A stretch of DNA of 43,654 bases from Chitinophagaceae bacterium (GTDB lineage: Bacteria > Bacteroidota > Bacteroidia > Chitinophagales > Chitinophagaceae): NCBI GenBank assembly GCA_028288595.1, contig JAQBNK010000113.1:1-43654 (forward strand), in the 5' to 3' direction. Both the position numbers and the translations under genes were made by a program. The notes under the pieces are model-generated. The model worked only from the letters and a program-made list of their open reading frames with translations. It ran no database searches and was not told the DNA's origin. This document shows positions 1 to 33,183 of this stretch, piece after piece (the first letter of the stretch is position 1; each line of letters starts with the position of its first letter).

Positions 1-288
1 GTCTGCGCCTTTCTCGGTTTTGGTACTGGTTTCTGGGCCATATTCGTAACGATGGGTGCAGAACAATTTGTCACCAACCTGAGAGCGACTGCCGCAACAA
101 CAGTTCCGAATATGGTAAGAGGAACGGTTCCATTGTTAATAATACTTTGCAGGTTTCTACGCAATCAAACCGGTATCTATATAACAGGAACATGGGTGGC
201 CGGGATAATCGTAATGGTAATTGCCATTATTGCAGCGCTTTCAATTAAAGAAACTTTTGGGAAAGATTTGAATTATGTTGAAAATTAG
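1..288 (+). CDS. MFS transporter, C-terminal fragment
   Basis: The reading frame is open from base 1 and stops at 286-288, giving about 95 residues, so the gene begins upstream of the window. The fragment has a hydrophobic stretch at the window edge, then a loop containing AEQFVTNLRATAATTVPN, and two further likely membrane segments, ending in a short charged tail (FGKDLNYVEN). The loop and following helices resemble the last two or three helices of sugar- or metabolite-type major facilitator transporters, which move small solutes across the inner membrane. The substrate cannot be told from this piece. Its TAG stop codon lies inside the first copy of the AATTAGCA word repeat. The family call is fairly good; nothing more specific is supported. 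Confidence 0.7.
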   Translation, partial: VCAFLGFGTGFWAIFVTMGAEQFVTNLRATAATTVPNMVRGTVPLLIILCRFLRNQTGIYITGTWVAGIIVMVIAIIAALSIKETFGKDLNYVEN

Positions 289-383
289 CAAATTCGGTAA
301 TTAGCAAATTAGCTAATGATAGCGCCGTTTCATTTGCTAATTTTCACATTTGCTAATTTGCTAATCAACTAATTTGCTAATTA
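282..383. repeat. Word-repeat inverted element 1 (AATTAGCA type)
   Basis: The left arm (282-319) is made of AATTAGCA/AATTAGCT words at about 8-bp spacing. The right arm (332-383) carries the complementary words (TTTGCTAA, AATTTGCT). A 12-base unrelated spacer lies between them. The element starts at the stop codon of the upstream transporter and ends exactly at the ATG of the glycosyltransferase, so it forms the whole intergenic region and the 5' leader. The arms could fold into a long A/T-rich hairpin. Whether it acts as a terminator is unknown. Confidence 0.75.
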
Positions 384-1367
384 ATGAAGTTTCTCATCAT
401 TCGCTTTTCTTCTATTGGTGATATCGTTCTTACGACGCCGGTGATCCGTTGCCTGAAACAACAGGTTGCAGGTGCAGAGGTTCATTACTTAACTAAACGC
501 GGATTTAAAGCAGTACTTGAGAATAATCCTTACATCGATAAAATGCATTTGCTGGGTGATGATCTAGAGGAAACGATTCAGCAATTACAAAAAGAAAATT
601 TCGATTACATAATTGACCTTCATAAAAATCTCCGGACATTAAAAGTTAAAAGAGCATTGAATAAAGTGAAGTCTGTTTCATTTAATAAGCTCAATATCCA
701 AAAATGGTTTCTCACTGCTTTTAAAATAAACATGCTTCCGCCGGTTCATATTGTTGACCGTTACTTACAAACAATAAAAAAGTTTGGGGTTGAAAATGAT
801 GGAAAGGGGCTTGATTATTTTATTCACGCAAAAGATATTGTGAAAGAAGGAAGGCTTCCATCAACCCATCAAAATGGTTTTATAGGAATTGTGATCGGTG
901 CGGCTTTGAACACTAAAAAACTTCCTGTAAAAAAGTTGGAAGAATTATGCAGGCTGATTAATTATCCTATTGTATTAATGGGCGGACCTGAAGATGCAGT
1001 GAATGCAGAACTGATCGCCACTGTGGACCAGGAGAGAATTTATATTGCCTGCGGAAAATTCAACATTAATCAAAGCGCTGATCTTGTAAGAAAAGCAAAA
1101 GCGATCATCACGCATGATACAGGCTTAATGCACATCGCCGCTGCTTTTAAAAAACCAATCTATTCTGTCTGGGGAAATACTGTTCCTGAATTTGGTATGA
1201 CTCCTTATTATGGAAATGAAACCGCAGACAATAAAATGTTCGAGGTAAAACCTTTATACTGTCGTCCCTGCAGCAAAATTGGTTATAGCAAATGCCCGCT
1301 CGGGCATTTTAAATGTATGAACAACCAGGATATTGAAGCCATTGCATTAGCCGTAAAACAACTTTAG
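384..1367 (+). CDS. Glycosyltransferase family 9 (heptosyltransferase-like)
   Basis: This 327-residue protein belongs to the ADP-heptose:LPS heptosyltransferase family (GT9), GT-B fold enzymes that add sugars to the lipopolysaccharide core on the cytoplasmic face of the inner membrane. The N-terminus KFLIIRFSSIGDIVLTTPV is the characteristic first strand and glycine loop of the acceptor-binding domain. The C-terminal half contains the donor-site segment ITHDTGLMHIAAAF followed by KPIYSVWGNT. Near the C-terminus four cysteines are spaced C-x2-C-x7-C-x6-C (in LYCRPCSKIGYSKC and LGHFKC), suggesting a metal-bound or disulfide knuckle. The ATG directly follows repeat element 1 with no recognisable ribosome site. 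Sugar and acceptor specificity cannot be read from sequence. Confidence 0.88.
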   Translation: MKFLIIRFSSIGDIVLTTPVIRCLKQQVAGAEVHYLTKRGFKAVLENNPYIDKMHLLGDDLEETIQQLQKENFDYIIDLHKNLRTLKVKRALNKVKSVSFNKLNIQKWFLTAFKINMLPPVHIVDRYLQTIKKFGVENDGKGLDYFIHAKDIVKEGRLPSTHQNGFIGIVIGAALNTKKLPVKKLEELCRLINYPIVLMGGPEDAVNAELIATVDQERIYIACGKFNINQSADLVRKAKAIITHDTGLMHIAAAFKKPIYSVWGNTVPEFGMTPYYGNETADNKMFEVKPLYCRPCSKIGYSKCPLGHFKCMNNQDIEAIALAVKQL

Positions 1368-1375
1368 TTAACAAC

Positions 1376-1402
1376 AAAAGCGACCTTTTTAGTCGCATTT
1401 TA
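1376..1402. terminator. Probable bidirectional terminator
   Basis: A short hairpin with stem GCGAC (1380-1384) pairing GTCGC (1392-1396) is extended by A/T pairs and flanked by A-runs on one side and T-runs on the other. It sits between the convergent glycosyltransferase and TonB-receptor genes, where a two-way terminator is expected. The stem is short, so confidence is moderate. Confidence 0.55.
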
Positions 1403-1425
1403 TTGATTTTTCATAGGTAGCTTTT

Positions 1426-3849
1426 TTATCCTTTGATCCTTCCCTTCTCTGCTTCTAACCCGGTTTTTCTTTGTCTCGCATCTTTAACCTGGCTGCTTCC
1501 AAAACGGTAAGTAAAATTCACCCTGAAAGTTTGACTTTCCCAAGCTCCGTGGCCTTTAATATATACTCCGCCAAAATCAGAAATGGCTGTCCATGGTGCG
1601 GTATGAAAAATATCTGTAGCACTTAATTTAACCGTTGCTTTCTTTTGGAACAATTGCTTTTGCAAACCCAGGTCCATTGCGCCCTGCGGTTTTGTCTTCC
1701 AGCTTCCACCCCATACACTCGGCCCGTTAAACCATCCGCTTGCTTCTGCAGAATACTCATGACCTAAAGTAAATGTGTGCTGCATGTAAGCCCCATAGGT
1801 AGGAAGGTTGAGCTTAAGTTGTTTGTTGTTGAACTCGCCTCTATACATTTGGTAATTGTACCAAAGGTTTACATAACCGTTCCACCATTTTTTAATTTGC
1901 AAGGGAGACGAAACAGTTACACTTAATATTTGCTGTGTAGCTAAATTCCGCTGCTGCAGAAAGGTGGCATTCTTTACCGTGTCGGTAATTTCTGTTGAGT
2001 AATCTTTAACATGCGAATATCCAATCGCCGTATTCAAAAACCCTTTGAATGTATGCGTCAGCTCTACATTATCAGTATACTGGGGTTTAAGAAATGCATT
2101 TCCTTTTGAGTAAGTTAATTCGTCCAATTTATATTCAAATGGATTCAGGTCCTGGTAAGTGGGCCGGTCTATTCTGCGGCTGTAAGTAAGATTTAAAGCA
2201 TTTGTTTTATCCAGTGTCCAGCTCAATGCGGCACTTGGAAAAAGATCGGTGTAATTTCTTTTTACATGGTTAGCTGCCTGAACAGTTCCGTCTGCTCTTA
2301 GTAAAGTGCCTTCACTATTTGTTTGTTCTGCTCTTAGTCCGGCTTGCAAACTTATTTTTTCATTGAACTGCCTGTTATAGTTAACATAAGCAGCATTCAC
2401 GTTTTCTTTATAAAGAAAACTATTACTTCTGTCGAGGACCTTCGTTGCAACTCCGCCGCTACTTAAAAAGAAATCAAGTGTATTGCTGGTTTTTACATAA
2501 GAGAACTTAGCTCCATAGCCGAATTTTCCTTTAAAAGCTTTTTGCTCCGCGTCTACTTTAGCTGTGTAAATATCAATGTTCGTTGGTGTATAGTTGCTGT
2601 TAATGATCGTAGAAAGTACATTGCCATTTTTATCATAATAATAATTTGGCTGGTAACTTCTTCCCGTACCGCGGAACAAACCATAATCGCCGTCAAAATT
2701 TATTTCAGTTCCGGAGGTGTCTGCGTACCGGTAGTTTACATTGAAATTGGAATTATTGCGGAACTCAGGAATTGAATTAGTGGCCCGCAAAGCTTTTATA
2801 TAAGTATTGGTTGGCTTGTACGAAATATCCGTTTCGCTGGTGCTGTTATTTTGTGCATCAGAAAAACTGGTTGTTGCTAAAATCCCGAAAGTATTTTTTG
2901 AGTTGATAAAATAGTCTGCCCCGATCTTCGCATTTACATTCTGATTTCTATGACGCTGCAAACTTTTTTGATCGTACAGCGAATCGTTTTGAATACGGTA
3001 AAGATCCAGTGGATTTTCGTAGATACCGGAGAAGCCGCTTATGTTTCCAAATACATTGATGATTTTATCGCGATAATTAAGATTTACTGAGGCATTTGCT
3101 TTTGGTGTAACACCCTGAACAAATCCAACACTTGTACTTCCGTTGGTGCCGAACTTTTTATTTTTTTTTAACCGGATATTTACAATTCCTGCATTTCCGC
3201 TTGCATCGTATTTAGCGCTGGGATTACTAATTATTTCTATCGCTTCAATATCGTTACTGTTGATCGTTCTTAAATAGGAAGCAAGATCAGAAGTATTTAA
3301 TTGTGTGGGTTTTCCATCAATATAAATCTTTACACCGGTCTTGCCTTTCATACTGATGTTATCGTTGTTGTCAACTGTAACGCCCGGACTTTTTTGCAAA
3401 AGTTCCATCGCATTACTTCCCGTTGCATTAATGCTGTTCTCAACATTAAAAATTGTTTTATCTGCTTTTACTTCTATCATGGGTTTTTTAGAAGTAACGG
3501 TTACATTCTGAAGTTTAGATGCAGCAGGATTTAATGAAACGGTGTTTAGTGTGATCGCTTCGCCGGATAAATTAAAAACCGGGGAATAAACTTTCTCATA
3601 CCCCACGAGTGAATAACTCATTAAATAGCTTCCGGGAAGAACGCTAAAACTATATTTTCCATTTGCATCTGAAATATCTGCTTTAATTAAGCTGCTGTCT
3701 TTTTTTGAAAGAAGAGAAACGGTTACAGCCTGCAGTGCTCTGCCATTATTATCTTTTACCTCGCCATTTATGCTTGACTTCGATTGTGAAAAACCAAGGG
3801 TTGAAATTGTTGTCAGCATTAAAACTAACAACCAGGTTTTGGGTGCCAT
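1426..3849 (-). CDS. TonB-dependent outer-membrane receptor with carboxypeptidase-regulatory-like domain
   Basis: A protein of about 807 residues if started at the ATG at 3849, which gives a clean signal peptide (MAPKTWLLVLMLTTISTLGFSQ). The longer reading from 3879 uses a TTG and spoils the signal. After the signal comes a CarboxypepD_reg-like beta-sandwich (SSINGEVKDNNGRALQAVTV), then a plug domain (LLQKSPGVTVDNNDNISMKG, VKIYIDGKPTQL, IEIISNPSAKYDASGNAGIVNI), then a long beta-barrel of the Bacteroidota 'outer membrane beta-barrel' type ending in an aromatic strand region (FRVNFTYRFGSS) and a charged tail. It probably imports or exports a ligand across the outer membrane with TonB energy. 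No binding protein or regulator lies beside it, so the ligand is unknown. Confidence 0.88.
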   Translation of the reverse strand: MAPKTWLLVLMLTTISTLGFSQSKSSINGEVKDNNGRALQAVTVSLLSKKDSSLIKADISDANGKYSFSVLPGSYLMSYSLVGYEKVYSPVFNLSGEAITLNTVSLNPAASKLQNVTVTSKKPMIEVKADKTIFNVENSINATGSNAMELLQKSPGVTVDNNDNISMKGKTGVKIYIDGKPTQLNTSDLASYLRTINSNDIEAIEIISNPSAKYDASGNAGIVNIRLKKNKKFGTNGSTSVGFVQGVTPKANASVNLNYRDKIINVFGNISGFSGIYENPLDLYRIQNDSLYDQKSLQRHRNQNVNAKIGADYFINSKNTFGILATTSFSDAQNNSTSETDISYKPTNTYIKALRATNSIPEFRNNSNFNVNYRYADTSGTEINFDGDYGLFRGTGRSYQPNYYYDKNGNVLSTIINSNYTPTNIDIYTAKVDAEQKAFKGKFGYGAKFSYVKTSNTLDFFLSSGGVATKVLDRSNSFLYKENVNAAYVNYNRQFNEKISLQAGLRAEQTNSEGTLLRADGTVQAANHVKRNYTDLFPSAALSWTLDKTNALNLTYSRRIDRPTYQDLNPFEYKLDELTYSKGNAFLKPQYTDNVELTHTFKGFLNTAIGYSHVKDYSTEITDTVKNATFLQQRNLATQQILSVTVSSPLQIKKWWNGYVNLWYNYQMYRGEFNNKQLKLNLPTYGAYMQHTFTLGHEYSAEASGWFNGPSVWGGSWKTKPQGAMDLGLQKQLFQKKATVKLSATDIFHTAPWTAISDFGGVYIKGHGAWESQTFRVNFTYRFGSSQVKDARQRKTGLEAEKGRIKG

Positions 3850-3971
3850 TGTTTTGGTGTTTTTTGAATTGAAACGCAAAGCACACGTAAATGTTACACC
3901 GAAAAAATGTCAATAATAGATAAACTGCTGATTTTGATGATGAATGGCGAACCTAACAATTGATAGCTGCA

Positions 3972-4005
3972 CAAAAAAAAGTGAGCTGCTTTTATACAAC
4001 TCACT
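3972..4005 (-). terminator. Rho-independent terminator of mdh
   Basis: Read on the minus strand, a stem of AGTGAGTTG (4005-3997) pairs with CAGCTCACT (3988-3980), with one G-T wobble, around an 8-base loop, and is followed by a run of eight T. It lies 24 bases beyond the mdh stop codon, a classic intrinsic terminator arrangement. Confidence 0.75.
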
Positions 4006-4028
4006 CCTTTTATTTTATGCTGTTCTTT

Positions 4029-4958
4029 TTATAATGTCTTCAATACATCATTCATATTTCGTACAGCATCTGCACTCTTATTAAATATACCCTGCTCTTC
4101 ATCATTCAGTTTATAATCTACAATCTTCTCCCAGCCATTTTTACCAATAACAACCGGAACGCCTAAGCAAATATCTTTTTGTCCGTACTCGCCGTCCAGT
4201 GAAACGCAGCAGGAGAATAATTTTTTCTCATCACGCAAAATACTTTTTACTAAAGCCGCACCTGCGGCACCCGGTGCGTACCATGCAGATGTTCCGATAA
4301 GTTTGGTTAACGTAGCCCCGCCCACCATTGTATCTGCAACGATTTGTTTTTGCTGTTCTGCACTTAAAAAATTGGTGACAGGTGCACTGTTCCATGTTGC
4401 ATAACGGATCAACGGAATCATTGTGGTGTCACCATGACCACCAATTACTGTAGCGTTCAGATCGTTTGGAGAGCAACTCAACGCCTGGCTCAGGTAACAT
4501 TTAAACCTTGCGCTGTCAAGAATACCACCCATGCCAATGATCTTATGCTTATCAACACCGCTGGTGGTGAGCGTTAAATAAGTCATCGTATCCATAGGAT
4601 TTGAGATAACGATGATAATAGCGTTTGGAGAATGTTTTAAAATATTTTCAGTTACACTTTTTACAATATTCGCATTGGTGCCGATCAATTCTTCGCGGGT
4701 CATTCCTGGTTTGCGTGGAAGCCCGGATGTAATTACCACAACATCAGAACCTGCAGTCTTTGCATAATCGTTGGTGCTGCCGGTTATTTTTGTTTCAAAT
4801 CCAAGAAGAGCTGCGGTCTGCATCATATCCAGCGCTTTTCCTTCAGCAATACCTTCTTTAATATCCAGGAGAACCAGTTCTGTACAAAGCGATGCACGGG
4901 CAATATTATCGGCACAGGTTGCACCTACTGCGCCTGCTCCTACTACGGTAACTTTCAT
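4029..4958 (-). CDS. mdh: Malate dehydrogenase
   Basis: A 309-residue NAD-dependent dehydrogenase of the LDH/MDH family, converting malate and oxaloacetate in the cytoplasmic TCA cycle. The Rossmann loop GAGAVG is at residues 7-12 and an Asp follows strand beta-2 (LLDI, residue 32), favouring NAD. The substrate-specificity loop reads PRKPGMTRE, with Arg82 (Gln in lactate dehydrogenases) and Arg88. The catalytic pair is Asp148/Arg151 region plus His175 (GGHGDTTM). The length fits the LDH-like MDH type. A box TACCTTTG at 5002-4995 (minus strand) matches the Bacteroidota -7 consensus, giving a leader of about 35 bases. Its upstream side is formed by a word-repeat arm. The call is secure, with malate preferred over lactate because of Arg82. 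Confidence 0.95.
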   Translation of the reverse strand: MKVTVVGAGAVGATCADNIARASLCTELVLLDIKEGIAEGKALDMMQTAALLGFETKITGSTNDYAKTAGSDVVVITSGLPRKPGMTREELIGTNANIVKSVTENILKHSPNAIIIVISNPMDTMTYLTLTTSGVDKHKIIGMGGILDSARFKCYLSQALSCSPNDLNATVIGGHGDTTMIPLIRYATWNSAPVTNFLSAEQQKQIVADTMVGGATLTKLIGTSAWYAPGAAGAALVKSILRDEKKLFSCCVSLDGEYGQKDICLGVPVVIGKNGWEKIVDYKLNDEEQGIFNKSADAVRNMNDVLKTL

Positions 4959-4994
4959 GACAAATGTTTATCGGTAATTGAATTAATAACGGCG

Positions 4995-5002
4995 CAAAGG
5001 TA
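4995..5002 (-). promoter_or_regulatory. Putative -7 box of mdh promoter
   Basis: On the minus strand this reads TACCTTTG, a full match to the Bacteroidota TAnnTTTG -7 element, 37 bases before the mdh start. No clear -33 TTTG is present at 19-21 bases; that position falls in the ATGAGTA word repeat. Confidence 0.5.
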
Positions 5003-5155
5003 ATGAGAGATGAGTAATGAGTAATGAATAATGAGTGTGTTTAGTATTAAAGGAAATCAGGGCTAAAGCCCGGGAATTGCTGTCGTTATATCTTTAGTAT
5101 GGTCGGGCTTTAGCCCTGCAACTCTTCCATTCGAATCCTCCTCATTACTCATTTC
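5003..5155. repeat. Word-repeat inverted element 2 (ATGAGTA type) with nested palindrome
   Basis: The left arm (about 5008-5038) is a run of ATGAGTA/ATGAATA words at exactly 7-bp spacing. The right arm (5140-5155) carries the complement (CTCATTACTCATTTC). Between them lies a perfect 15-bp inverted repeat, CAGGGCTAAAGCCCG at 5058-5072 and its complement at 5104-5118, separated by 31 bases. The right arm overlaps the stop codon of the minus-strand TlpA-like gene, and the left arm abuts the mdh promoter box. Confidence 0.75.
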
Positions 5156-5637
5156 AACAACTCACTCAGCTCTTTAAAATCAATACCCGTTTCATAAGTT
5201 TTAATAAGCTTACCCTGTTTATCATAAACAGCAGTGAAAGGGGTGAACTTAAGATCGTAAAATACCGGTAAATAATATTTTACGTCACGACCAAAATGAA
5301 CATTTTTAAAATCCTTCATTTCGTATTTGGTCATAAATTCCTTAATCTCAGCAGGAGTAAAATAGCTGGCCCAGACGAAGTTTACATTTTTCAAATCATC
5401 CATATGTTTGGCCAGCTCCTGCGCTTCTAGCTGGCAGTGGCCGCATTCTGGACTGAAATAGGTGATGATAACCGGTTTATTTTTCGGCAGACTTGACGTT
5501 GTAAACCAGGTGCTGTCTGTTTGGAGGATCATAAACTGGGGAACTCCGGGCTGTTTTTTATAGGCAGGCAAGTCGTCTGTTTGAGCAAAACTTGTTATGG
5601 AAAAAAAGGTGAAAAGTATAAATAGGATTTTTTTCAT
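5149..5637 (-). CDS. Secreted thioredoxin/TlpA-like thiol protein
   Basis: A 162-residue protein with a signal peptide MKKILFILFTFFSITSFAQ, so it probably acts in the periplasm or is exported. The thioredoxin-fold core has the redox motif CGHC (Cys65, Cys68, in YFSPECGHCQLEA), and a later segment FTPFTAVYDKQGKLIKTY provides the likely cis-proline loop and the strand that follows (TPFT). TlpA/AhpC-TSA relatives reduce or exchange disulfides, often in cytochrome maturation or stress response. No partner gene is adjacent, so the role is open. The start at 5637 is chosen because it gives the signal peptide; the frame continues about 64 codons upstream without a plausible domain. Its stop lies in repeat element 2. 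Confidence 0.85.
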   Translation of the reverse strand: MKKILFILFTFFSITSFAQTDDLPAYKKQPGVPQFMILQTDSTWFTTSSLPKNKPVIITYFSPECGHCQLEAQELAKHMDDLKNVNFVWASYFTPAEIKEFMTKYEMKDFKNVHFGRDVKYYLPVFYDLKFTPFTAVYDKQGKLIKTYETGIDFKELSELLK

Positions 5638-5698
5638 ATCCGGGATTTGAATAATAAAAATACGCCAAGTCTCGAATTGTAAAATGTTAATGACATAC

Positions 5699-5765
5699 AA
5701 ATTCAAAAGTAAAAAGTCAAAAGAGAGCGCTATTTTTTGAATTTTTACTTTTGAATTTTGAATTA
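5699..5765. repeat. Word-repeat inverted element 3 (TTCAAAAG type)
   Basis: The left arm (5699-5725) reads as TTCAAAAG, TAAAAAG, TCAAAAG words of 7-8 bp. The right arm (5735-5764) contains the complement (TTTGAATTTTTACTTTTGAA). A short GAGCGC-containing spacer separates the arms, so the whole can fold into a long A/T-rich hairpin. It lies in the region between the divergent TlpA-like gene and ffh. Confidence 0.65.
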
Positions 5766-5782
5766 CGCTGATGCTCACGGCG

Positions 5783-5826
5783 CTACAGATCAATGGTGGC
5801 GACGCAAGGGACGATGCTATGAAAAG
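5783..5826 (+). repeat. Dispersed repeat R, copy 1
   Basis: This segment contains GACGCAAGGGACGATGCTAT followed by GAAAA. A 21-base stretch ending in ATGCTATGAAAA (5805-5825) is identical to 27447-27467, and diverged relatives occur at about 9027-9055 and 43609-43644 on the other strand. It lies upstream of ffh, just beyond word element 3. It has no credible reading frame of its own here. Confidence 0.6.
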
Positions 5827-5858
5827 CAAATGCCGGGCTCAAAAATCTTTCCCCTTCG

Positions 5859-5866
5859 TATATTTG
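5859..5866 (+). promoter_or_regulatory. Putative -7 box of ffh promoter
   Basis: TATATTTG matches the Bacteroidota TAnnTTTG -7 consensus and lies about 50 bases before the ffh start. A -33 TTTG is not evident at the usual distance, so this is a single-box match. Confidence 0.45.
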
Positions 5867-5915
5867 CAGCCGCATAAGTGGGCAATGACGCTCACTATGG
5901 CTTTGAAGAAATTCT

Positions 5916-7247
5916 ATGTTTAATAATCTAACCGAGCGGCTTGAAAGTGCCTTTAAGAATTTAAAAGGTGAGGCCCGCATCACCGAACTGAACGTTGCCA
6001 ATACAGTAAAGGATATTCGGCGGGCTTTGGTTGACGCTGATGTGAACTATAAGATCGCCAAAGAATTTACCGATGTGGTGAGGGAAAAAGCGATGGGTGA
6101 AAAGGTGCTGAACGCAATTAACCCGGGCCAGTTAATGGTAAAAATTGTCCAGGACCAATTGACTGAACTGATGGGCGGTGAAGCAGCAGATTTTAGCATC
6201 ACAGGAAACCCGGCGGTGATATTAATTGCAGGTTTGCAGGGCAGTGGTAAAACAACTTTCAGCGGTAAGCTGGCAAATTATTTAAAGAGTAAAGGAAAAT
6301 CTCCATTGCTTGTTGCGGCCGATATTTATCGTCCTGCTGCGATTGACCAGTTAATGGTTCTGGGTGGACAAATAAATGTTGAAGTTTATAGCGAAAGAGA
6401 AAATAAAGATGCTGTTGATATTGCTCGTAACGCGATAAAAGAAGCAAAAGCAAAAAATAAAAATGTTGTCATCATAGATACCGCTGGTCGTTTAGCAGTG
6501 GATGAAGTGATGATGACTGAAGTAGCAAATATTAAAAAAGCAGTTGAGCCCACAGAAATATTATTTGTTGTTGATTCAATGACGGGACAAGATGCTGTTA
6601 ACACGGCAAAAGCATTTAACGACCGCCTTGATTTTAGTGGTGTTGTGCTGACAAAACTAGATGGTGATACAAGAGGCGGTGCTGCTTTATCAATTAAATA
6701 CACCGTTCAGAAGCCGATCAAATTTGTTAGCAGTGGCGAGAAGATGGATACGCTTGATGTCTTCTATCCAGATCGTATGGCACAGCGTATTTTGGGTATG
6801 GGTGATATTACATCACTCGTTGAAAAAGCGCAGGCGCAGTTTGATGAAGTTGAAGCGAAAAAATTAGAGAAGAAAATCCGCCGTAACCAATTTGACTTCC
6901 AGGATTTTTTAGATCAGTTACAACAGATCAAAAAAATGGGTAGCCTGAAAGATCTGATGGGAATGATACCCGGCATAGGAAAAGCCGTAAAAGATATTGA
7001 TATCAGCGACGACGCATTTAAAGGTGTTGAAGCGATCATTAAATCAATGACCCCTTTTGAAAGATCTAACCCCGATGTTATTAATCCAAGCCGAAGACTT
7101 CGCATTGCAAAAGGCGCAGGAAAAGACATTAGTGAAGTGAACGCATTTATGAAACAGTTTGAACAAATGCGGGAGATGATGAAATCCATGAATAAAATGC
7201 CAATGGGAATGGGGGGAATGGGTGCGTTGAAGGGAATGAGGAAGTAA
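5916..7247 (+). CDS. ffh: Signal recognition particle protein Ffh (SRP54)
   Basis: A 443-residue GTPase that binds signal sequences and the 4.5S RNA and targets ribosomes to the membrane through FtsY. The helical N domain covers residues 1-95. The G domain has the P-loop GLQGSGKT (106-113), the DTAGR switch (188-192) and the guanine-specificity motif TKLDG (246-250) followed by DTRGG. The M domain begins near 310 and ends in a methionine-rich tail (MPMGMGGMGALKGMRK), as expected for the signal-peptide groove. The length is typical. The TAA stop is already part of word-repeat element 4. The start chosen gives the canonical N domain (FNNLTERLESAFKNLKG). Confidence 0.97.
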   Translation: MFNNLTERLESAFKNLKGEARITELNVANTVKDIRRALVDADVNYKIAKEFTDVVREKAMGEKVLNAINPGQLMVKIVQDQLTELMGGEAADFSITGNPAVILIAGLQGSGKTTFSGKLANYLKSKGKSPLLVAADIYRPAAIDQLMVLGGQINVEVYSERENKDAVDIARNAIKEAKAKNKNVVIIDTAGRLAVDEVMMTEVANIKKAVEPTEILFVVDSMTGQDAVNTAKAFNDRLDFSGVVLTKLDGDTRGGAALSIKYTVQKPIKFVSSGEKMDTLDVFYPDRMAQRILGMGDITSLVEKAQAQFDEVEAKKLEKKIRRNQFDFQDFLDQLQQIKKMGSLKDLMGMIPGIGKAVKDIDISDDAFKGVEAIIKSMTPFERSNPDVINPSRRLRIAKGAGKDISEVNAFMKQFEQMREMMKSMNKMPMGMGGMGALKGMRK

Positions 7248-7300
7248 TTAGCAAATTAGTTGATTAGCACTAATTAGCAAATTAGCTAATTTGCTAATTA
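7245..7300. repeat. Word-repeat inverted element 4 (AATTAGCA type), perfect palindrome
   Basis: The 56-bp gap between two convergent genes is made almost wholly of AATTAGCA/AATTAGCT words. Bases 7271-7300 form a perfect 30-bp palindrome. The ffh TAA (7245-7247) and the minus-strand stop of the lytic transglycosylase (7300-7298) both lie inside the element. It could serve as a shared two-way terminator. Confidence 0.8.
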
Positions 7301-8962: not shown

Positions 8963-8966
8963 ATGG

Positions 8967-9158
8967 TTTTACCACATAGGAACATAGACACATAGAAAAA
9001 ATTGAATACCAGCTGCAGTTTTTCATGGGGTCTTTCTTGCGTCGCAATCCTTTCATCCATATATCTTTTATCAGCAAAGCAAGTATTAAATACAGTAAGG
9101 CCTTTGTAAGATTCTACTTTGTATTTTCTTCTATGTTTCTATGCGCCTATGTGGTAAA
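8967..9158. repeat. Word-repeat inverted element 5 (ACATAGAA type) with nested repeat R
   Basis: The left arm (8967-8999) reads TTTTACCACATAGGAACATA and continues with ACATAG words at 8-bp spacing. The right arm (9124-9158) is its near-complement (CTATGTTTCTATGCGCCTAT then GTGGTAAA). The 124-base interior holds a diverged, reversed copy of dispersed repeat R near TTGCGTCGCAA. At about 190 bp with roughly 33-bp terminal inverted repeats, it has the shape of a small non-autonomous mobile element. It fills most of the gap between the rpsP terminator and the rimM promoter. Confidence 0.7.
9027..9055 (-). repeat. Dispersed repeat R, copy 2 (diverged)
   Basis: Read on the minus strand it gives GCGACGCAAGAAAGACCCCA followed by TGAAAAACTGCAG. 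This aligns with copy 1 (GCGACGCAAGGGACGATGCT then ATGAAAA) and with copy 3 (ATGAAAAACTACAG). It is embedded in word element 5. Confidence 0.5.
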
Positions 9159-9181: not shown

Positions 9182-9697
9182 ATGCCCGATTACATTCACA
9201 TAGGAAAAATTGTAGCCAGCTTCGGTTTAAAAGGTGAGATCATTTTAAAACATAGTCTTGGTAAAAAAACGGATCTTAAAAAAACACAGGTGTTGTTTGT
9301 CGAAGAACTGAAAGGTTCTCATCTCCCCTTCTTTATTGAATCATCAAAGGCGAAAGACACGGAAGAAATTTCTGTAAAGCTGGAAGGAATAAATAGTAAA
9401 GAGGCCACAAGAAAAATACTAGCTAAAAATGCCTGGTTAACTGTTGAAGATTTTAATCTTCTTGCAGATAAGAATGCTCCCATCGGGCTCATCGGTTTTT
9501 CTATTTTTAATGAAGATGAACTGATAGGTATAATTGAAGAAGTTATCGAGCAGCCTCACCAGGTCTTACTCCGCATCAACTATAAAGAGAAGGAAGCCTA
9601 CATTCCGGTGCATGCAGAAACGTTGGATAAAATTGACCGGAAGAAAAAGGAAGTCCATGTTACATTGCCGGATGGGTTGCTGGATATTTATGAATGA
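9182..9697 (+). CDS. rimM: Ribosome maturation factor RimM
   Basis: A 171-residue 16S rRNA processing factor that binds S19 and helps mature the 30S head. The N-terminal barrel opens with DYIHIGKIVASFGLKGEI, the RimM signature including the conserved G-LKG turn. The PRC-barrel-like C-terminal half includes IGFSIFNEDELIGIIEEV, EAYIPVHAETLDKID and the closing LPDGLLDIYE. The length matches the family. Neighbourhood with rpsP supports the call. Its TGA stop lies in the first ATGAGTA word of repeat element 6. Confidence 0.95.
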   Translation: MPDYIHIGKIVASFGLKGEIILKHSLGKKTDLKKTQVLFVEELKGSHLPFFIESSKAKDTEEISVKLEGINSKEATRKILAKNAWLTVEDFNLLADKNAPIGLIGFSIFNEDELIGIIEEVIEQPHQVLLRINYKEKEAYIPVHAETLDKIDRKKKEVHVTLPDGLLDIYE

Positions 9698-9775
9698 GTG
9701 ATGAGTAATGAATAATGAGTAGTTCCTTCTACAGGACTTCCCCTCTTTCTCATTACTCATTTCTCATTATTTATT
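9691..9775. repeat. Word-repeat inverted element 6 (ATGAGTA type)
   Basis: The left arm (9691-9721) consists of ATGAGTG/ATGAGTA/ATGAATA words every 7 bp and contains the rimM stop codon. The right arm (9747-9775) carries the complement (CTCATTACTCATTTCTCATT). A 25-base spacer with a small TCCT/AGGA hairpin lies between. The element ends about 28 bases before the start of the MHS symporter. Confidence 0.75.
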
Positions 9776-11290: not shown

Positions 11291-11515
11291 ATGAATCACA
11301 CCAGGCGCATTACAGGTTTGCTTTGTATTCTTATTGCTGTTGCAGCGATTGTTATTCTTATTACCAGCGCCGTTCACAATATCGAATCCGGTGGAAAAAC
11401 TGATATCAGCAAACCAATTCCCTGGATTATTATTATTGCTGTCTTCACCCCAATCGCAGCGGGACTTGCCATTTTTGGATGGTATGCCTGGAAGAAAGAA
11501 TACAATAATGAGTGA
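11291..11515 (+). CDS. Small two-helix membrane protein
   Basis: A 74-residue protein with two hydrophobic helices, about residues 9-29 (GLLCILIAVAAIVILITSAV) and 45-67 (WIIIIAVFTPIAAGLAIFGW), joined by a short polar loop and ending in a charged tail (KKEYNNE). I do not recognise a named family. It begins 2 bases after the symporter stop and in the same direction, so it is probably translated with it and might assist or regulate that carrier; this is inference from position only. Its TGA stop sits in an ATGAGTG word of repeat element 7. Confidence 0.7.
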   Translation: MNHTRRITGLLCILIAVAAIVILITSAVHNIESGGKTDISKPIPWIIIIAVFTPIAAGLAIFGWYAWKKEYNNE

Positions 11516-11688
11516 TAAGCAGTGACTTAACCATTAATTATTTTATTGTCCGGGCAGCATAACTTTTTTCAACTGTATAGGCAGCCTGTCCCGCTAACTG
11601 CGGGATCGCACTCTTGTACAGCAGATCAATATTCAGCATTCACAATTCACGATTTCATCTCTCATTACTCATTACTCATCACTCAGCG
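11504..11688. repeat. Word-repeat inverted element 7 (ATGAGTA type), diverged
   Basis: The left end (11504-11525, AATAATGAGTGATAAGCAGT) contains the stop codon of the small membrane protein. The right arm (11660-11687) is CTCATTACTCATTACTCATC followed by ACTC, in the opposite sense. The interior contains a G/C-rich hairpin, TCCCGCTAACTGCGGGA (11589-11605), and CTCTTGTACAGC, whose complement GCTGTACAAGAG resembles the head of dispersed repeat R copy 3. The right arm ends 8 bases before the dinB promoter box. Confidence 0.6.
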
Positions 11689-25181: not shown

Positions 25182-25188
25182 AATTATT

Positions 25189-26604: not shown

Positions 26605-26688
26605 GCTTGTTGCTAAAGCCTTCCCGATTATAATTTACAAGACTTTACTTTTTGGGTTGGGTAAACCTCCTTAAGCTTAAATTGTAGT

Positions 26689-27399
26689 ATGTTAGGAATA
26701 ATCGTCCAGCTTGCACTCTCCTGGTTAATTGTCTGGGCTTTTGAAAAAAGAAACCTTTCCGTATTAGGATTTCGGCCAACAAAAGATCGCCTGTTAAGCT
26801 TCTTAGTTTTTTTTGTTGTTACTGCATTCTTTTGTTCTACTGCATTTATCTTGAAAATGTATGCCGGAAAACAAGCGTGGCAATTAAATCCGGCGCTAAG
26901 CTTTAATTTGATCTTTGAAGGTCTTAGGTGGAACATGGTATCCGTTTTATACGAAGAGCTGATCTTTCGCGGAGTGCTGCTATATATTTTAATTAAAAGA
27001 TTAGGGACGACAAAAGGAATAATTATTTCAGCAATTGCCTTTGGTATTTATCATTGGTTCTCTTTTGGGATAATTGGAAATGTTATGCAGATGATCATTG
27101 TATTTTTTATAACCGGGGCTATGGGATTATTATTAGCCTATGGTTATGCAAAAACATTTTCGCTTTACATACCTATAGGAATTCACTTCGGCTGGAACTT
27201 AACGCAGATGTTTATTTTTTCAGACGGACCAACCGGGAATGGAATATTAGTTCCTGTAACAGGCCAGCCTTTCAGAACAAATTCATATTTTATTTTCTTC
27301 GCAGTAACATTTCTACCGATGATTTTTATGCTGGCGGTGAATTATTTGTTATTAAGACGGAAAAGGAAAATAAGTATGGAAGACCGGCTTAATTTATAA
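26689..27399 (+). CDS. CPBP-family intramembrane metalloprotease
   Basis: A 236-residue protein with about seven hydrophobic segments. The three CPBP (Abi/CAAX) motifs are present: EELIFRG (Glu89, Glu90, Arg94), FGIYHWF (His122) and HFGWN (His166, Asn170). Relatives include Rce1 CAAX proteases and bacteriocin-immunity proteins; most bacterial members have no known substrate. It follows the radical SAM gene on the same strand after 84 bases. The start is preceded by TTAAATTGTAGT, a weak variant of the leaderless promoter pattern. Confidence 0.87.
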   Translation: MLGIIVQLALSWLIVWAFEKRNLSVLGFRPTKDRLLSFLVFFVVTAFFCSTAFILKMYAGKQAWQLNPALSFNLIFEGLRWNMVSVLYEELIFRGVLLYILIKRLGTTKGIIISAIAFGIYHWFSFGIIGNVMQMIIVFFITGAMGLLLAYGYAKTFSLYIPIGIHFGWNLTQMFIFSDGPTGNGILVPVTGQPFRTNSYFIFFAVTFLPMIFMLAVNYLLLRRKRKISMEDRLNL

Positions 27400-27427
27400 C
27401 ATTCGGAGGCCTGCTCCACAATGATAT

Positions 27428-27470
27428 GCTGTACAAGTGAGAGACACAAGGGACGATGCTATGAAAAACT
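27428..27470 (+). repeat. Dispersed repeat R, copy 3
   Basis: The segment opens with GCTGTACAAGTGAGAGACAC and continues AAGGGACGATGCTATGAAAA then ACTACAG. Bases 27447-27467 are identical to 5805-5825. The head GTACAAGTGAG matches copy 4 at the right end of the window. It lies between the convergent CPBP protease and E1 dehydrogenase genes. Confidence 0.65.
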
Positions 27471-27490
27471 ACAGTTCGTACCAAAAAAAA

Positions 27491-29557: not shown

Positions 29558-29560
29558 GCG

Positions 29561-29568
29561 CAAATATC
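29561..29568 (-). promoter_or_regulatory. Putative -7 box giving leaderless E1 dehydrogenase mRNA
   Basis: On the minus strand this is GATATTTG, one mismatch from TAnnTTTG, ending 3 bases before the ATG at 29557. Word element 8 begins immediately upstream. Confidence 0.4.
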
Positions 29569-29569
29569 G

Positions 29570-29738
29570 GTCTAATTAGCAAATTAGCTAATTAGCAAAT
29601 GAAAGTTGGGAGTACAAGGATTAGTAAATTAGGTGACTAGCAAATTCAGACGCGACGGTATAAAAGAAATTCAAGAATTTTAATGAACCCTCCGAGGGCT
29701 CATCTGCTAATTTACTAATTATCTAATTTGCTAATTCA
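29570..29738. repeat. Word-repeat inverted element 8 (AATTAGCA type)
   Basis: The left arm (29570-29600) has AATTAGCA/AATTAGCT/AATTAGCA at exact 8-bp spacing. The right arm (29700-29736) has the complementary words with some change (CTAATTTACTAATTATCTAA). The interior of about 100 bases carries degenerate words and an 11-base hairpin CCCTCCGAGGG. The element abuts the E1 promoter box on one side and reaches the stop codon of the FAH-family gene (29738-29736) on the other, so it fills the whole gap. Confidence 0.75.
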
Positions 29739-30347
29739 CTTCACTTCTATATCGAAGAGTTTTTCGTTCTCAAAAAAACCTTCCAGTCTGTCACCTACTG
29801 AGCATTCGCCCACTCCCGCTGGCGTACCTGTAAAGATCATGTCGCCAATGTTAAGGGAAAAGTATTGAGAAATATGAGAGATCACTGTTTTAAAATCGAA
29901 TACCATATCAGCGCTATTACCGTGCTGCACTTTTTCACCATTCAACAAAAGATAAAATTGCATGGGCTTTTCTAAAGCGCCATCCTTTAAAGGTTTCCAT
30001 GTTCCTGCGACAGCAGAATTATCAAACGCTTTTGCTTTTTCCCATGGCAATCCTTTTTTCTTTAATTCATTTTGTATATCTCTCGCGGTAAAGTCTATTC
30101 CCACCGAAATTTCGTTTACGTATTTATCAGCATGTTTTCCCGGTATGTACCGGCCGTTTTTACTAACGTGGAGGATTATTTCCAATTCGTAATGCAGCTC
30201 ATTAGAAAATTCAGGATAATAAAAAGGGGTGTTGGGTTGAAGCAAGGCGTTTTTAGGCTTCATAAAAATTACCGGCTCTTCCGGTATTTCGTTTTTCAGT
30301 TCTTTGGCGTGTTCTCCGTAGTTGCGCCCAACGCAGAAAATTTTCAT
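29736..30347 (-). CDS. Fumarylacetoacetate hydrolase (FAH) family protein
   Basis: A 203-residue single-domain FAH-fold enzyme when started at ATG 30347 (KIFCVGRNYGEHAKEL), which is the family N-terminus; the frame extends 14 codons further without support. Metal ligands appear as HYELEIILHV (two Glu) and GIDFTARDIQ (Asp). The active-site region ends in IFTGTPAGVGECSVGD. Single-domain members act as acylpyruvate hydrolases or oxaloacetate decarboxylases, or on 2-hydroxyhepta-2,4-diene-1,7-dioate. Physiological substrate is not predictable. It lies downstream of pth on the same strand. Confidence 0.88.
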   Translation of the reverse strand: MKIFCVGRNYGEHAKELKNEIPEEPVIFMKPKNALLQPNTPFYYPEFSNELHYELEIILHVSKNGRYIPGKHADKYVNEISVGIDFTARDIQNELKKKGLPWEKAKAFDNSAVAGTWKPLKDGALEKPMQFYLLLNGEKVQHGNSADMVFDFKTVISHISQYFSLNIGDMIFTGTPAGVGECSVGDRLEGFFENEKLFDIEVK

Positions 30348-30474
30348 CCTTATATATTTTATTTTTAAGGGTTGGATGATCCTCGCCATTGCCTTGCTTC
30401 ACAATTAAATTAGTTTTCCAGGTAAATGAGCCACGGCCGGTAATCAAACTTTATATCGCTAAATTATTAATTTA

Positions 30475-31050
30475 TCAAACAAACTCTAACTTATTTACCT
30501 GATTCATAACCCTTTCCAATCCTTCAAGGGAAATTTGCTCAATCACTTCGACGCACTTAGCGATCTTTTTTTGAACAACCGGTACTTCGTCCGGCAACCA
30601 CTTAGACAATACATAATCTGCCTGCATACCCTTTGGATAATCATTGCCAATACCGAATCGCAGCTTTGGATACTGATCTGTTCCCAGCATCAATTGAATA
30701 TCTTTTAGTCCATTATGCCCGCCGGCACTGCCTGATGGCCGCACCCGTATTTTCGAAAGCGGTATGGCCAGATCATCTACTATCGTTAAAGTATTTTCTA
30801 CCGGTATCTTCTCTTTATCAAGCCAATACTTGAAAGCTTTCCCGCTCAGGTTTACATAAGTCGTTGGTTTTATACAGACAAAGGTTTTCCCTTTCCATTT
30901 TATTTCAGCGATTGCCGCAAGTCGGTCTGTCTTAAAAAATCCATTGTGCTTTATTACAAAAGCATCAAGCACATCAAACCCGATATTATGCCGGGTGTGA
31001 GCATATTCTTCTCCAATATTTCCAAGTCCGGCAATTAAAAATTTAGACAT
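30475..31050 (-). CDS. pth: Peptidyl-tRNA hydrolase
   Basis: A 191-residue enzyme that frees tRNA from drop-off peptidyl-tRNA. ATG 31050 is chosen because it starts the fold exactly (KFLIAGLGNIGEEYAHTRHN), with the catalytic His in the TRHNIGFDVLD motif. KPTTYVNLSGKAF, IVDDLAIPLSKIRVRPSGSAGGHNGLKD and FGIGNDYPKG are all diagnostic. The frame extends 29 codons upstream into the promoter region shared with the divergent histidine kinase. In many Bacteroidota pth lies close to prs and rplY; here the kinase gene intervenes on the opposite strand. Confidence 0.95.
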   Translation of the reverse strand: MSKFLIAGLGNIGEEYAHTRHNIGFDVLDAFVIKHNGFFKTDRLAAIAEIKWKGKTFVCIKPTTYVNLSGKAFKYWLDKEKIPVENTLTIVDDLAIPLSKIRVRPSGSAGGHNGLKDIQLMLGTDQYPKLRFGIGNDYPKGMQADYVLSKWLPDEVPVVQKKIAKCVEVIEQISLEGLERVMNQVNKLEFV

Positions 31051-31102
31051 AGCGTAAAAATAAAAGATATTTGCAGCACACAGCACCCTAAATCTCCCCG
31101 GT

Positions 31103-32437
31103 ATGGTTTTATCTGCCTTAACTGAAAGGCTGGTCAATTTCGGAGTTTACCCCGGTCTTGACTTTGAAGAACGAAAAAAAACGAGGCTTCTTAATATTTG
31201 CTTTCTTATTACGATGCCTATCATATTGTTTCTGGCGGTATTAAATTTTTTTACAGGCCATGAAGAAGTTGTCGTTTTCAACTTATTAGTTCTTACCTGC
31301 CAGCTGCTATTTTTTTATATCAATTACAAACACAAGTTTCTTGCGGGAAGGATATTTATCAGTATCACCTGTTCTATTCTCTTTAGTTACTCGGCGCTGA
31401 AATTTCAAAATGGAACGATTGATTACCTGCTTGTAAATATTATTGCAATTACACTTCTTCTGAACAAGAGACGCCTTGTTCTTTTGATAACCAGCTTTAC
31501 AGCGGTGCTTTATATCACGGTTCGCATCATTCTTATCTATTCTCCCCGCACCGGCGATTTACCTTTATGGCGACAGGTAACCCACCCTATCGTAAGTACG
31601 TTGCTGATCATTCTTATTATGCAGCGTTTTAAAAAAGAACATTTTACTTACCTGGAAGAGGCTGATCAAAAAACAGTGGAACTGGAGGATAAACAAGCCC
31701 GGATGACAGAGCAGCAAACGGAGCTGGAAGAAAAGAATAAGCAACTGGAAATATTGAATCAGACAAAAGAAAAATTATTTTCTATTGTAGCGCATGATAT
31801 TCGTTCTCCCATAGCTGCCTTAAGAAGTTCTCTTGATCTTTTCAATAAAGACATGATCTCTAAAGAAGAGTTCCAGGCGTTATCGGGCGAGCTTACTATA
31901 CAGGTTGATCAATTACAGGACAATCTCGATAATCTGTTGCACTGGAGCCATAGCCAGCTGCAGGGAATAGAAGTAAATCCACGCAAAATTTTCATCAGTA
32001 CACTTATCAAAAAAACAGTGGAGCTGATGAAAGTTAACATCAGCAATAAAAAAATAACAATTGATGTACGGTGCCCTGAATTTGTGGCTGCTTATGCCGA
32101 TGAGGAACATGTGAAACTCATCTTAAGAAATTTATTATCGAATGCTATTAAATTCAGCTTCTTTGGAAGCCACATCAATATTCATTGCGAAGCAAGCAGT
32201 CACTTCATTTCCATTTCAATAGAAGATTTTGGAAAAGGGATTGAAGAAAAAAGAATTCATTCGCTCTTTATTTATTCAGGCACCAGTTCTACAAGAGGTA
32301 CTTTAAATGAGAAGGGAACCGGGCTGGGGTTATTGCTGACTAAAGAATTTATCGAGAAAAATGGTGGGAGTCTTATTGTGAAAAGTGCAGAGGGCAAAGG
32401 CAGTACTTTTTGTTTCACGCTACCTGCCACATCATAA
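31103..32437 (+). CDS. Membrane sensor histidine kinase
   Basis: A 444-residue kinase. About six transmembrane helices occupy residues 29-175, followed by a coiled coil (EEADQKTVELEDKQARMTEQ and on to about 222). The dimerisation/phosphoacceptor helix has His231 in FSIVAHDIRSPIAALRSS. The ATPase domain shows the N box (LRNLLSNAIKFS), the G1 region (EDFGKGI) and G2 (GTGLGLLLTKEF). No periplasmic sensor domain and no response regulator are adjacent, so it is an orphan with an unknown cue, perhaps intramembrane. A GATATTTG box at 31066-31073 may be its -7 element. It is transcribed divergently from pth. Confidence 0.9.
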   Translation: MVLSALTERLVNFGVYPGLDFEERKKTRLLNICFLITMPIILFLAVLNFFTGHEEVVVFNLLVLTCQLLFFYINYKHKFLAGRIFISITCSILFSYSALKFQNGTIDYLLVNIIAITLLLNKRRLVLLITSFTAVLYITVRIILIYSPRTGDLPLWRQVTHPIVSTLLIILIMQRFKKEHFTYLEEADQKTVELEDKQARMTEQQTELEEKNKQLEILNQTKEKLFSIVAHDIRSPIAALRSSLDLFNKDMISKEEFQALSGELTIQVDQLQDNLDNLLHWSHSQLQGIEVNPRKIFISTLIKKTVELMKVNISNKKITIDVRCPEFVAAYADEEHVKLILRNLLSNAIKFSFFGSHINIHCEASSHFISISIEDFGKGIEEKRIHSLFIYSGTSSTRGTLNEKGTGLGLLLTKEFIEKNGGSLIVKSAEGKGSTFCFTLPATS

Positions 32438-32461
32438 AAAATCCCGCTTTTCAGCGGGATA
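32435..32461 (-). terminator. Intrinsic terminator of rplY
   Basis: ATCCCGC (32441-32447) and GCGGGAT (32454-32460) form a perfect 7-bp stem around TTTTCA. Read on the minus strand the stem is followed by six T, ideal for ending the prs-rplY transcript. It also lies just after the kinase stop and may work in both directions. Confidence 0.8.
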
Positions 32462-32484
32462 TGATAAGATAAAATTGTACTCAC

Positions 32485-33096
32485 TTATTTTTTCTTCGCC
32501 TCTGCCGCAGGAGCTGCTGCTGTTGTAGTAGTTGTAGCTTCTTCCTGCTTCAATATGCGGGTCATTACCACAGAAGCTACCGGAATGCGGGGAGAGTTAA
32601 GGATCTCGAAATTGGCCACCTTTACATCTTCCACCCGAATATTGCCGTTCAGCTCCAGGTTGGTAATGTCTACTTCAATTTGTTCAAGAAGATCTTTTGG
32701 TAATGCTTTTACTTTCAGCGATTTCATTTTAGTTACCAGTTTACCACCAGCTTTAACGCCGGCAGATACGCCTGTGAACTTAATAGGAAGTGTAGCAACC
32801 ACTTTTTTGTCTTCTACAAGTTCCATGAGGTCTACGTGAATTAACGCGTCAGAAACCTTATCAAACTGCAAGTCTTTTAAAATGCATTTGTAAGATTTTC
32901 CTTCAATGTCTACCTGTGCCAGTTGAAATTCACCGGTGTATACTAACGGCTTTAATGCCTTTGCAGAAGCAACAAAATTCACTTCCTGCGCACCCCCGTA
33001 AATTACACCAGGCACCAGTTCCTGAGAGCGATACTGGCGGGCGGCTTGTTTTCCAGTTTCGGTCCTCAGTTGTCCTTCGATTGTAATTGTTTTCAT
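32485..33096 (-). CDS. rplY: 50S ribosomal protein L25 (CTC-type)
   Basis: A 203-residue L25/TL5 protein that binds 5S rRNA. The N-terminal domain begins KTITIEGQLRTETGKQAARQYR and includes VPGVIYGG. The C-terminal beta domain has LPIKFTGVSAGVKAGGKLVTKM and ALPKDLLEQIEVDITNLELN. The Ala/Thr/Lys-rich tail (TTTTAAAPAAEAKKK) is disordered. It is longer than the roughly 94-residue E. coli L25, as usual for the general-stress (CTC) type. It follows prs and is probably co-transcribed with it. Confidence 0.95.
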   Translation of the reverse strand: MKTITIEGQLRTETGKQAARQYRSQELVPGVIYGGAQEVNFVASAKALKPLVYTGEFQLAQVDIEGKSYKCILKDLQFDKVSDALIHVDLMELVEDKKVVATLPIKFTGVSAGVKAGGKLVTKMKSLKVKALPKDLLEQIEVDITNLELNGNIRVEDVKVANFEILNSPRIPVASVVMTRILKQEEATTTTTAAAPAAEAKKK

Positions 33097-33126
33097 TGTT
33101 TATGTTTTAAATCTTTATTTTTTTTT

Positions 33127-33183
33127 CGTGAATAGTGAATCGTTAAACGTGAATGCATTGACGATTCATGTTTCAGGGTTCAC
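33127..33183. repeat. Word-repeat inverted element 9 (GTGAATA type)
   Basis: The left arm (33127-33156) is GTGAATA/GTGAATC/GTTAAAC/GTGAATG at exact 7-bp spacing. The right arm (33160-33183) is an imperfect complement (ACGATTCATGTTTCAGGGTT then CAC). The element lies inside the prs-rplY gap, starting 1 base after the prs stop codon, and would form a hairpin in the operon mRNA. Confidence 0.65.

Follow-up and report, generated by a model that had tools for sequence, protein, structure and literature searches.

The S23 genes, which encode small four-helix-bundle proteins (PF05635), are the cargo of the intervening sequences (IVSs) that interrupt 23S rRNA, and genes of the GxxExxY family (PF13366) keep similar company. 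The published IVSs, as far as the portions of the literature used here describe them, follow one plan: a PF05635 protein gene between inverted ends that form a long stem, in about 430 nt. In the sections consulted, the Coxiella IVS is reported to have a 28-bp stem with tandem heptamers (GACAGAT) in its 5' region and to be excised by RNase III, and older proposals of IVS mobility are recounted (PMC4990558). Here we analyze a 43,654-nucleotide stretch of DNA from a Chitinophagaceae bacterium (contig JAQBNK010000113.1 of assembly GCA_028288595.1; the window), in which nine gaps between protein genes hold hairpin elements whose inverted arms consist of a 7-8 bp word, imperfectly repeated. The words fall into several sets, which we call dialects. 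We think it likely that these hairpins are mostly gene-less, decaying relatives of small elements carrying S23 or GxxExxY genes, and that the dialects are fast-diverging lineages. Elements of this class are intergenic and about 0.05-0.7 kb long. Their inverted arms repeat a word every 7-8 bp, or every 8-12 bp in the GxxExxY type, and between the arms of a complete copy lies one small gene, S23 or GxxExxY.

The elements resemble IVSs outside rRNA but by location are not rRNA IVSs: they lie between protein genes, often in co-directional runs, and differ further in the number of their dialects, in the presence of copies that lack a gene and in carrying GxxExxY as a second type of cargo. An S23 open reading frame (ORF) between inverted ends is found at the majority of the S23 loci described below but in none of the nine window elements, which carry no gene. 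Heptamer repeats are the other close relatives. The available parts of the reports describe GGGAATC arrays near stop codons in Xanthomonas, with convergent pairs in 70 and 75 cases in two genomes (PMC4692102), TAACTGA arrays in Beggiatoaceae, Cyanobacteria and Bacteroidetes (PMC4679880), and octamer and heptamer arrays in Geobacter, partly on opposite strands, that are predicted regulator sites (PMC2700814). These repeats and the short tandemly repeated repetitive (STRR) sequences of cyanobacteria share with the present elements their intergenic 7-bp words, and S23 genes on cyanobacterial plasmids lie between heptamer arrays. The difference is that, in the published text at hand, such arrays are presented as repeats, regulatory sites or G-quadruplex motifs, with no link to S23 and no two-armed element around a gene. 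GxxExxY is mentioned once, beside a CRISPR-type reverse transcriptase, in the sections seen of PMC8934634. Among the literature matches listed, which include few subscription papers or preprints, none connects in its accessible text arms built of words with S23 or GxxExxY genes located outside rRNA.

Inspection of the nine gaps confirmed that all have the described architecture. The inverted arms outscored all of 1000 corrected dinucleotide shuffles in seven (282-383, 5003-5155, 5699-5765, 7245-7300, 8967-9158, 9691-9775 and 29570-29738); those of 33127-33183 were reached by 4/1000 shuffles and those of 11504-11688, whose left arm is weak, by 40/1000. Periodicity of 6-9 bp likewise exceeded every shuffle in seven elements, the exceptions being 29570-29738 (3/1000) and 8967-9158 (108/1000 by a half-element measure; both of its detected arms nonetheless peak at lag 8). 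The proposal of the sequence-only reading, that one architecture recurs in several different words, therefore stands, and many dialects were seen in a sample of the genome that includes the window. So does the association that it drew with stop codons: in seven of the nine elements one lies in an arm or at most 3 bp away from it (none for the elements at 8967 and 5699), two of these seven, at 282 and 11504, resting on small ORFs that are possibly not genes.

What do complete elements look like? The S23 and GxxExxY families were picked, and searched for by name, before any flank was inspected. The S23 proteins matched only PF05635 and bAvd, with PF22296 below its cut-off in one protein; the GxxExxY proteins belong to PF13366, which is PD-(D/E)XK nuclease-like and has a different fold. 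Within the taxonomic class of the window's genome, 222 of 295 genomes carry S23; GxxExxY was found in 129/198 genomes. The window's own genome (G000; other G numbers denote genomes compared with it, and L numbers individual loci) has two S23 ("four helix bundle", 23S-rRNA intervening-sequence protein) genes. Both lie between word-built arms, clearly in L002 (score 41, starting at a stop codon; the gene copy is broken by a stop) and moderately in L001 (score 29, just below the threshold of 30 used later).

We then took as the S23 set the best-scoring 30 of many more loci plus the two of G000, and as the GxxExxY set the best-scoring 30 of many more. Arms scoring at least 30 enclosed 21 of the 32 S23 loci and 19 of the 30 GxxExxY loci, against 0/29 for ffh controls and 1/601 for ordinary G000 genes; at a cut of 24 the figures were 27/32, 23/30 and 2/29. 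Mispaired flanks reached 30 in 10/256 (S23), 29/240 (GxxExxY) and 16/232 (ffh) combinations, counts that we read as inflated because dialects are shared and homologous flanks occur in opposite orientation. The shuffles for these two sets, as for the multi-phylum and spacer-hairpin sets below, could return unshuffled sequence, which makes them too strict as controls. Both arms had the same period in all 21 S23 pairs scoring at least 30 (7 in 16 pairs, 8 in 5). GxxExxY arms, judged by eye, use other words (ACAGAG, GCAAAG) at lags of 8-12, often with a TTTAACCRC-like outer end. In G110, a genome from the window's family, 9 of 13 S23 places have arms of at least 30.

The arrangement extends well beyond Bacteroidota. 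In a multi-phylum set made up of the best 80 named S23 loci of at least 587 confirmed (many from metagenome-assembled genomes, and sorted by hand into Bacteroidota and others from record titles), arms of at least 30 were found at 52, comprising 28/47 in Bacteroidota and 24/33 in others, compared with 0/80 shuffles and 6/320 mispaired flanks. Periods of (7,7) occurred in 49 of the 62 pairs scoring at least 26. The armed records outside Bacteroidota include Planctomycetales, Chloroploca, Anaerolineae, Acidobacteriaceae, Clostridia, Thiobacillus and Betaproteobacteria; two archaeal S23 loci scored 29 and 20, and a search for S23 in phage records gave no match. An Rfam scan of 20 of the 33 non-Bacteroidota loci found no rRNA. 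Of 30 plasmid records, eight were examined, and the S23 loci of all eight, which are cyanobacterial, had arms (scores 32-63) with lag 7 on both sides, that is, tandem intergenic heptamers like the STRR sequences. These arrays may be the named STRR words. On two cyanobacterial plasmids from different genera (L294, L299) an armed four-helix-bundle gene lies between cas6 and cas4, with different words in each. A match to the S-adenosylhomocysteine (SAH) riboswitch was noted at 374-462 of L284.

The sequence-only reading had proposed that orthologous gaps be compared for presence, absence and switching of words, and the gap between fadA and fadE in one genus shows all of these. A survey of 36 genomes gave 30 loci (species), 28 with both genes in view. 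Four gaps are empty (20-28 bp) and six, of 438-510 bp, contain an S23 element; the distance between the fadA stop and the start of its arm is -1 to 2 nt in five of them and 23 nt in L212, and the S23 gene of L186 aligns only over residues 18-107. L195 and L202 are internal-deletion copies that keep the arms with S23 remnants between them. Other gaps hold gene-less hairpins of other dialects (L197, L209 and L213, scores 42, 39 and 27) or gene-less word arrays, also of other dialects (L199 and L206, scores 20 and 18), and nine are short or of no assigned state. In L187 and L196 the gap has no element; some 1.35 kb of different sequence, resembling an open frame, takes its place. The S23 genes at this site are of two types, 53-62% identical, with different words (GGATATTAG and TATCAGG). 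Species with an empty site are sisters of species with a filled one, and the identities of the two genes are discordant: with L195 excluded from the pairs, fadA/S23 identities are 80.0%/84.1% for L184-L212, 93.9%/85.6% for L184-L186 and 87.7%/53.4% for L207-L212. As S23 can be more alike than the fadA genes of its hosts, descent with losses alone is insufficient.

A genome-wide excess, on which the sequence-only reading had made its proposal depend, was found. In an 838 kb sample of G000 (the window plus 60 contig heads, with four over-long gaps skipped), arms scoring at least 30 occur in 50 of 491 gaps, whereas this score is reached by 3 of 1473 shuffles and by none of 491 coding stretches of matching size; our thresholds (24-30) and word filter were chosen after the first results were known. 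The word-periodicity filter passes 28 of the 50, and by eye the other 22 are ordinary A-tract/GC/T-tract hairpins together with word elements that fail it, such as 5003-5155. At a cut of 28 with the filter the sample holds 31 word elements; the window contributes four, its other five being lost through the gene model and the filter. The word AATTAGCAAATTAGC, allowing one mismatch, has 56 matches in the genome and its backwards control 0. Word elements number about 7 per 200 kb in G000 and 8, 5 and 2 in G110, G134 and G057, which have S23; in three genomes that lack S23 the filter was passed 0, 1 and 2 times, and at most one of these hits seems genuine to us. In G035, shuffles reached 28 in 3 of 69 gaps and observed gaps in none. 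Element density thus goes in the expected direction in few genomes, the six compared having been chosen by S23 status and differing in G+C.

The 31 elements are distributed unevenly: 15 of 113 convergent gaps contain one, against 13/420 tandem and 3/106 divergent gaps (convergent versus the rest, 5e-5), and the outer end is within 10 bp of the stop codon on 29 of the 43 sides facing a gene 3' end but within that distance of the gene on only 2 of 19 start sides (Fisher 6e-5). Measured on ORFs, the neighbor's stop is equally close on 19/23 and 33/53 stop sides of S23 elements and on 8/17 of GxxExxY elements. This placement is what would be expected if the elements were two-way terminators, that is, if gene 3' ends retained long hairpins that terminate transcription or protect the mRNA 3' end, with the link to S23 secondary. 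We nevertheless regard that role, one of those suggested by the sequence-only reading, as unlikely. Where both neighbors were seen, armed S23 genes lie mostly between co-directional genes (17/22 and 43/52 loci), as at fadA-fadE, where moreover the site is empty in sister species. By eye, the ordinary terminator-like hairpins of G000 are different, with a short stem, an A-tract and a T-run, while the arms of the word elements are some 20-40 bp long and mostly A/T-rich, with no T-run after the stem. Nor do mismatches within S23 arms favor G-U over A-C (18 versus 25, and 49 versus 55), a pattern more in keeping with ends that arise on insertion and later decay than with a selected RNA stem; selection on the S23 stem at the RNA level was rejected on this ground. 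In GxxExxY arms (L113-L142) the bias on the gene strand is the reverse, with 32 A-C and 14 G-U mismatches (P 0.011). Arms wrapped around terminators were also considered and rejected, since an inner hairpin was significant in only 1 of 19 spacers under the over-strict shuffle control.

Are the dialects products of one word-generating process, as the sequence-only reading suggested, or of descent? By eye, those of G000 include ACATAGAA, ATGAGTA, TTGAATG, AAGTCAAAA, AAATTCTAATATCT, GTTGGC, GAACAAGG, TTTCGG and GTGAAAC. Words track the identity of the S23 protein: mean arm similarity rises from 0.16 (97 pairs with S23 identity below 30%) to 0.63 (4 pairs above 80%; Mantel 14/999). Gene-less copies also match particular S23 elements. 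In G110 the words of the S23 elements L366, L368 and L369 recur in gene-less arms of a 200 kb sample, as shared 12-mers, and in G000 gene-bearing and gene-less copies share words by eye (L001 with L035 and L045; L002 with L008). Both observations point to fast-diverging descent, and we conclude that the feature is real and general and that word-armed descent explains it better than a word-generating process.

A specific form of such a process would be slippage with hairpin-templated repair, building arrays at small palindromes with no mobile unit. Slippage has left a sign in L199, where one arm has grown to about 13 near-perfect GATGTGA copies and the other arm differs; moreover, heptamers are reported to outnumber the other repeats of 5-11 nt in most genomes, and polymerase slippage has been proposed as the cause, in work cited in the part of PMC4679880 that was available. 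As an account of the class, though, such growth seems very improbable to us: it leaves unexplained why the arms enclose genes of two unrelated families, why a site may be gene-bearing or empty, and why words follow S23 relatedness. Slippage may still adjust arm length.

The 5' arms of S23 elements contain 8% C and 30% G, with G exceeding C in 81 of 85; with so little C, such an arm forms a poor duplex with itself and a good one with its partner. The sequence-only reading had called the words rich in stop triplets. This is correct for S23-type words, in which stop triplets exceed shuffled letters (5' arms 0.101 versus 0.078; 3' arms 0.066 versus 0.042), but not for GxxExxY-type words, in which they are not enriched (5' arms 0.028 versus 0.050; 3' arms 0.045 versus 0.040).

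If the elements move, or moved, as units, what would move them? The third idea of the sequence-only reading, small mobile elements targeting stop codons, fared best: the placement at stop codons is observed, and movement is our deduction from comparative data. REP/REPIN sequences, which are short intergenic palindromes present in many copies and associated with RAYT transposases, offer one model, in which a Y1 (RAYT) transposase or a reverse transcriptase would mobilize the present elements in trans. The two have in common that they are short intergenic palindromes in many copies, and G000 has one Y1_Tnp gene. S23 also resembles Avd, the partner of the reverse transcriptase in diversity-generating retroelements, according to the sections seen of PMC10053308. 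Even so, we give this model little chance. The present elements comprise many dialects rather than one sequence family, and two S23-rich genomes, G134 (one contig, 9 S23) and G215 (5 contigs, 7 S23), appear in neither the Y1_Tnp nor the RVT_1 match lists. The sole Y1_Tnp gene of G000 (L183, 1480-1911) lies between two longer open frames with no flanking arms, so that a Y1 transposase as cargo of word arms was set aside. G000 has no RVT_1 match, which further disfavors the model, sets the elements apart from diversity-generating retroelements (a reverse transcriptase with template and variable repeats, TR/VR) and led us to reject a resident reverse transcriptase as the mover. Miniature inverted-repeat transposable elements (MITEs) and foldback elements share with ours the inverted ends and the gene-less copies formed by internal deletion (L195, L202), but the present elements have no fixed terminal sequence and no recognized transposase, and no target duplication was found; because the latter two are missing, they are not shown to be MITEs.

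We therefore return to small S23 and GxxExxY elements and their gene-less relatives. The evidence for them is that arms enclose both gene families, occupancy is polymorphic at one orthologous site, internal-deletion copies keep their arms, gene-bearing and gene-less copies of one genome have like words, and elements are placed at stop codons. Movement would most likely depend on the protein that the element encodes, S23 or GxxExxY, which would act on the words of its own element, perhaps helped by host enzymes. The repeated words of a lineage would be recognized by the S23 pentamer or the nuclease of that lineage, and their rapid drift could then give rise to dialects. Insertion directly 3' of a stop codon would probably be tolerated for two reasons. 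As neither 7 nor 8 is a multiple of 3, a single stop triplet in each word blocks all three frames; and the transcribed hairpin can be cleaved by RNase III, as has been published for the rRNA copies. That periods of 7 and 8 carry a stop triplet through all frames is simple arithmetic; an adaptive use of this is something we only suggest.

Several results weigh against this reading. The arms fall below threshold at 11 of the 32 and 28 of the 80 S23 loci, and at 4 of the 13 S23 places in G110, two of which have no arms, including L362 (score 19), the best S23 match of that genome. GxxExxY is absent from G000, where elements of its dialect nonetheless occur. A tblastn search of the 838 kb G000 sample for S23 and GxxExxY remnants gave three weak hits (E 0.009-0.04), none convincing, so that the derivation of the nine window elements from gene-bearing ones rests on arms and dialect. 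The overall correlation between dialect and protein is weak (Spearman 0.087), several of the G134 and G057 hits are A/T noise by eye, and in the 13 tandem gaps taken alone the number of elements found within 10 bp of a stop, 7, does not differ significantly from the 4.7 that random placement within the gap would give (P 0.08). S23 itself contains no recognizable nuclease or transposase, and no target-site duplication could be defined on comparing empty and filled fadA-fadE sites by eye. Finally, site states cluster on the fadA tree (18 changes against 21.6 when shuffled, with 0/200 shuffles as low), so that part of the pattern is vertical descent. We accordingly read the fadA-fadE site as probably reflecting partly vertical descent and partly repeated gain and loss of a unit.

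Three things that the consulted literature text handles separately are joined by these findings: rRNA IVSs with their S23 protein of unknown function, the excess of intergenic heptamer repeats, and the widespread GxxExxY genes. For two families of unknown role they provide the hypothesis that both belong to, and may mobilize or maintain, word-armed elements. Since such elements are common outside rRNA and, at the one site studied here, vary among related species, IVS mobility becomes testable in harmless bacteria. It is conceivable, and we suggest it tentatively, that they form a categorically new class of mobile element spread across many phyla, in which the ends are a repeated 7-8 bp word of no fixed sequence that would co-diverge with a pentameric four-helix-bundle protein or a PD-(D/E)XK nuclease, with no classical transposase; 23S rRNA IVSs and much of the heptamer-repeat excess in bacteria would then be its best-known remnants. 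For annotation there is a warning, namely that stop codons and operon gaps in such genomes can be element ends.

The individual window elements, none of which is assigned to a strand, are as follows. Three use the AATTAGCA dialect. The first (283-382, arms 283-318 and 347-382, spacer 28 nt; inverted-repeat score 52, 0/1000 shuffles) has the stop of a 78-residue ORF (52-288) inside its left arm and an ATG at 384. The second (7245-7300, 0/1000) occupies the whole of a convergent gap, reaching the stop codon on either side, its arms containing the ffh stop (7245-7247) and a minus-strand stop (7298-7300). The ffh C-terminus here looks native in comparison with relatives, and no element was seen after ffh among the correctly oriented loci of 20 shown. 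The third (29570-29738, 0/1000) has arms at 29574-29600 and 29710-29736 with a nested pair at 29620-29641 and 29698-29719, and the end of its right arm overlaps a minus-strand gene stop (29736-29738).

The ATGAGTA dialect also accounts for three. That at 5003-5155 (0/1000) has two arm pairs, 5007-5021 with 5141-5155 and 5023-5072 with 5104-5153, around a GC-rich inner hairpin (GGGCTAAAGCCC); a minus-strand ORF (5149-5778) ends within its right arm and a malate dehydrogenase gene (4029-4958) lies on the other side. At 9691-9775 (arms 9693-9719 and 9749-9775, 0/1000) the left arm contains the rimM stop (9695-9697). In the element at 11504-11688 (arms 11509-11525 and 11669-11685; arms 40/1000, period 0/1000) the left arm is decayed.

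The remaining three differ in dialect. In the gap before ffh, the element at 5699-5765 (arms 5699-5722 and 5735-5758, 0/1000) uses TTCAAAAG/AAGTAAAA, and by eye similar words occur elsewhere in G000 and in G110. The short element at 33127-33183 (arms 33135-33154 and 33164-33183, 4/1000) is of the GTGAATC/GTGAAAC dialect and adjoins the stop of a ribose-phosphate diphosphokinase gene (33185-34132). That at 8967-9158 (arms 8968-9002 and 9123-9158, spacer 120 nt, 0/1000) is of the ACATAGAA dialect with a TTTTACCAC end of a type found in many GxxExxY elements; by eye it shares internal sequence beyond the arms with a second ACATAGAA element, at 7355-7470 of L042, in the opposite orientation. On contig C7 of G000, L004, L006 and L032 are nested palindromes, with GxxExxY-type words inside AATTAGCA arms and the reverse, which look as if one element had entered another.

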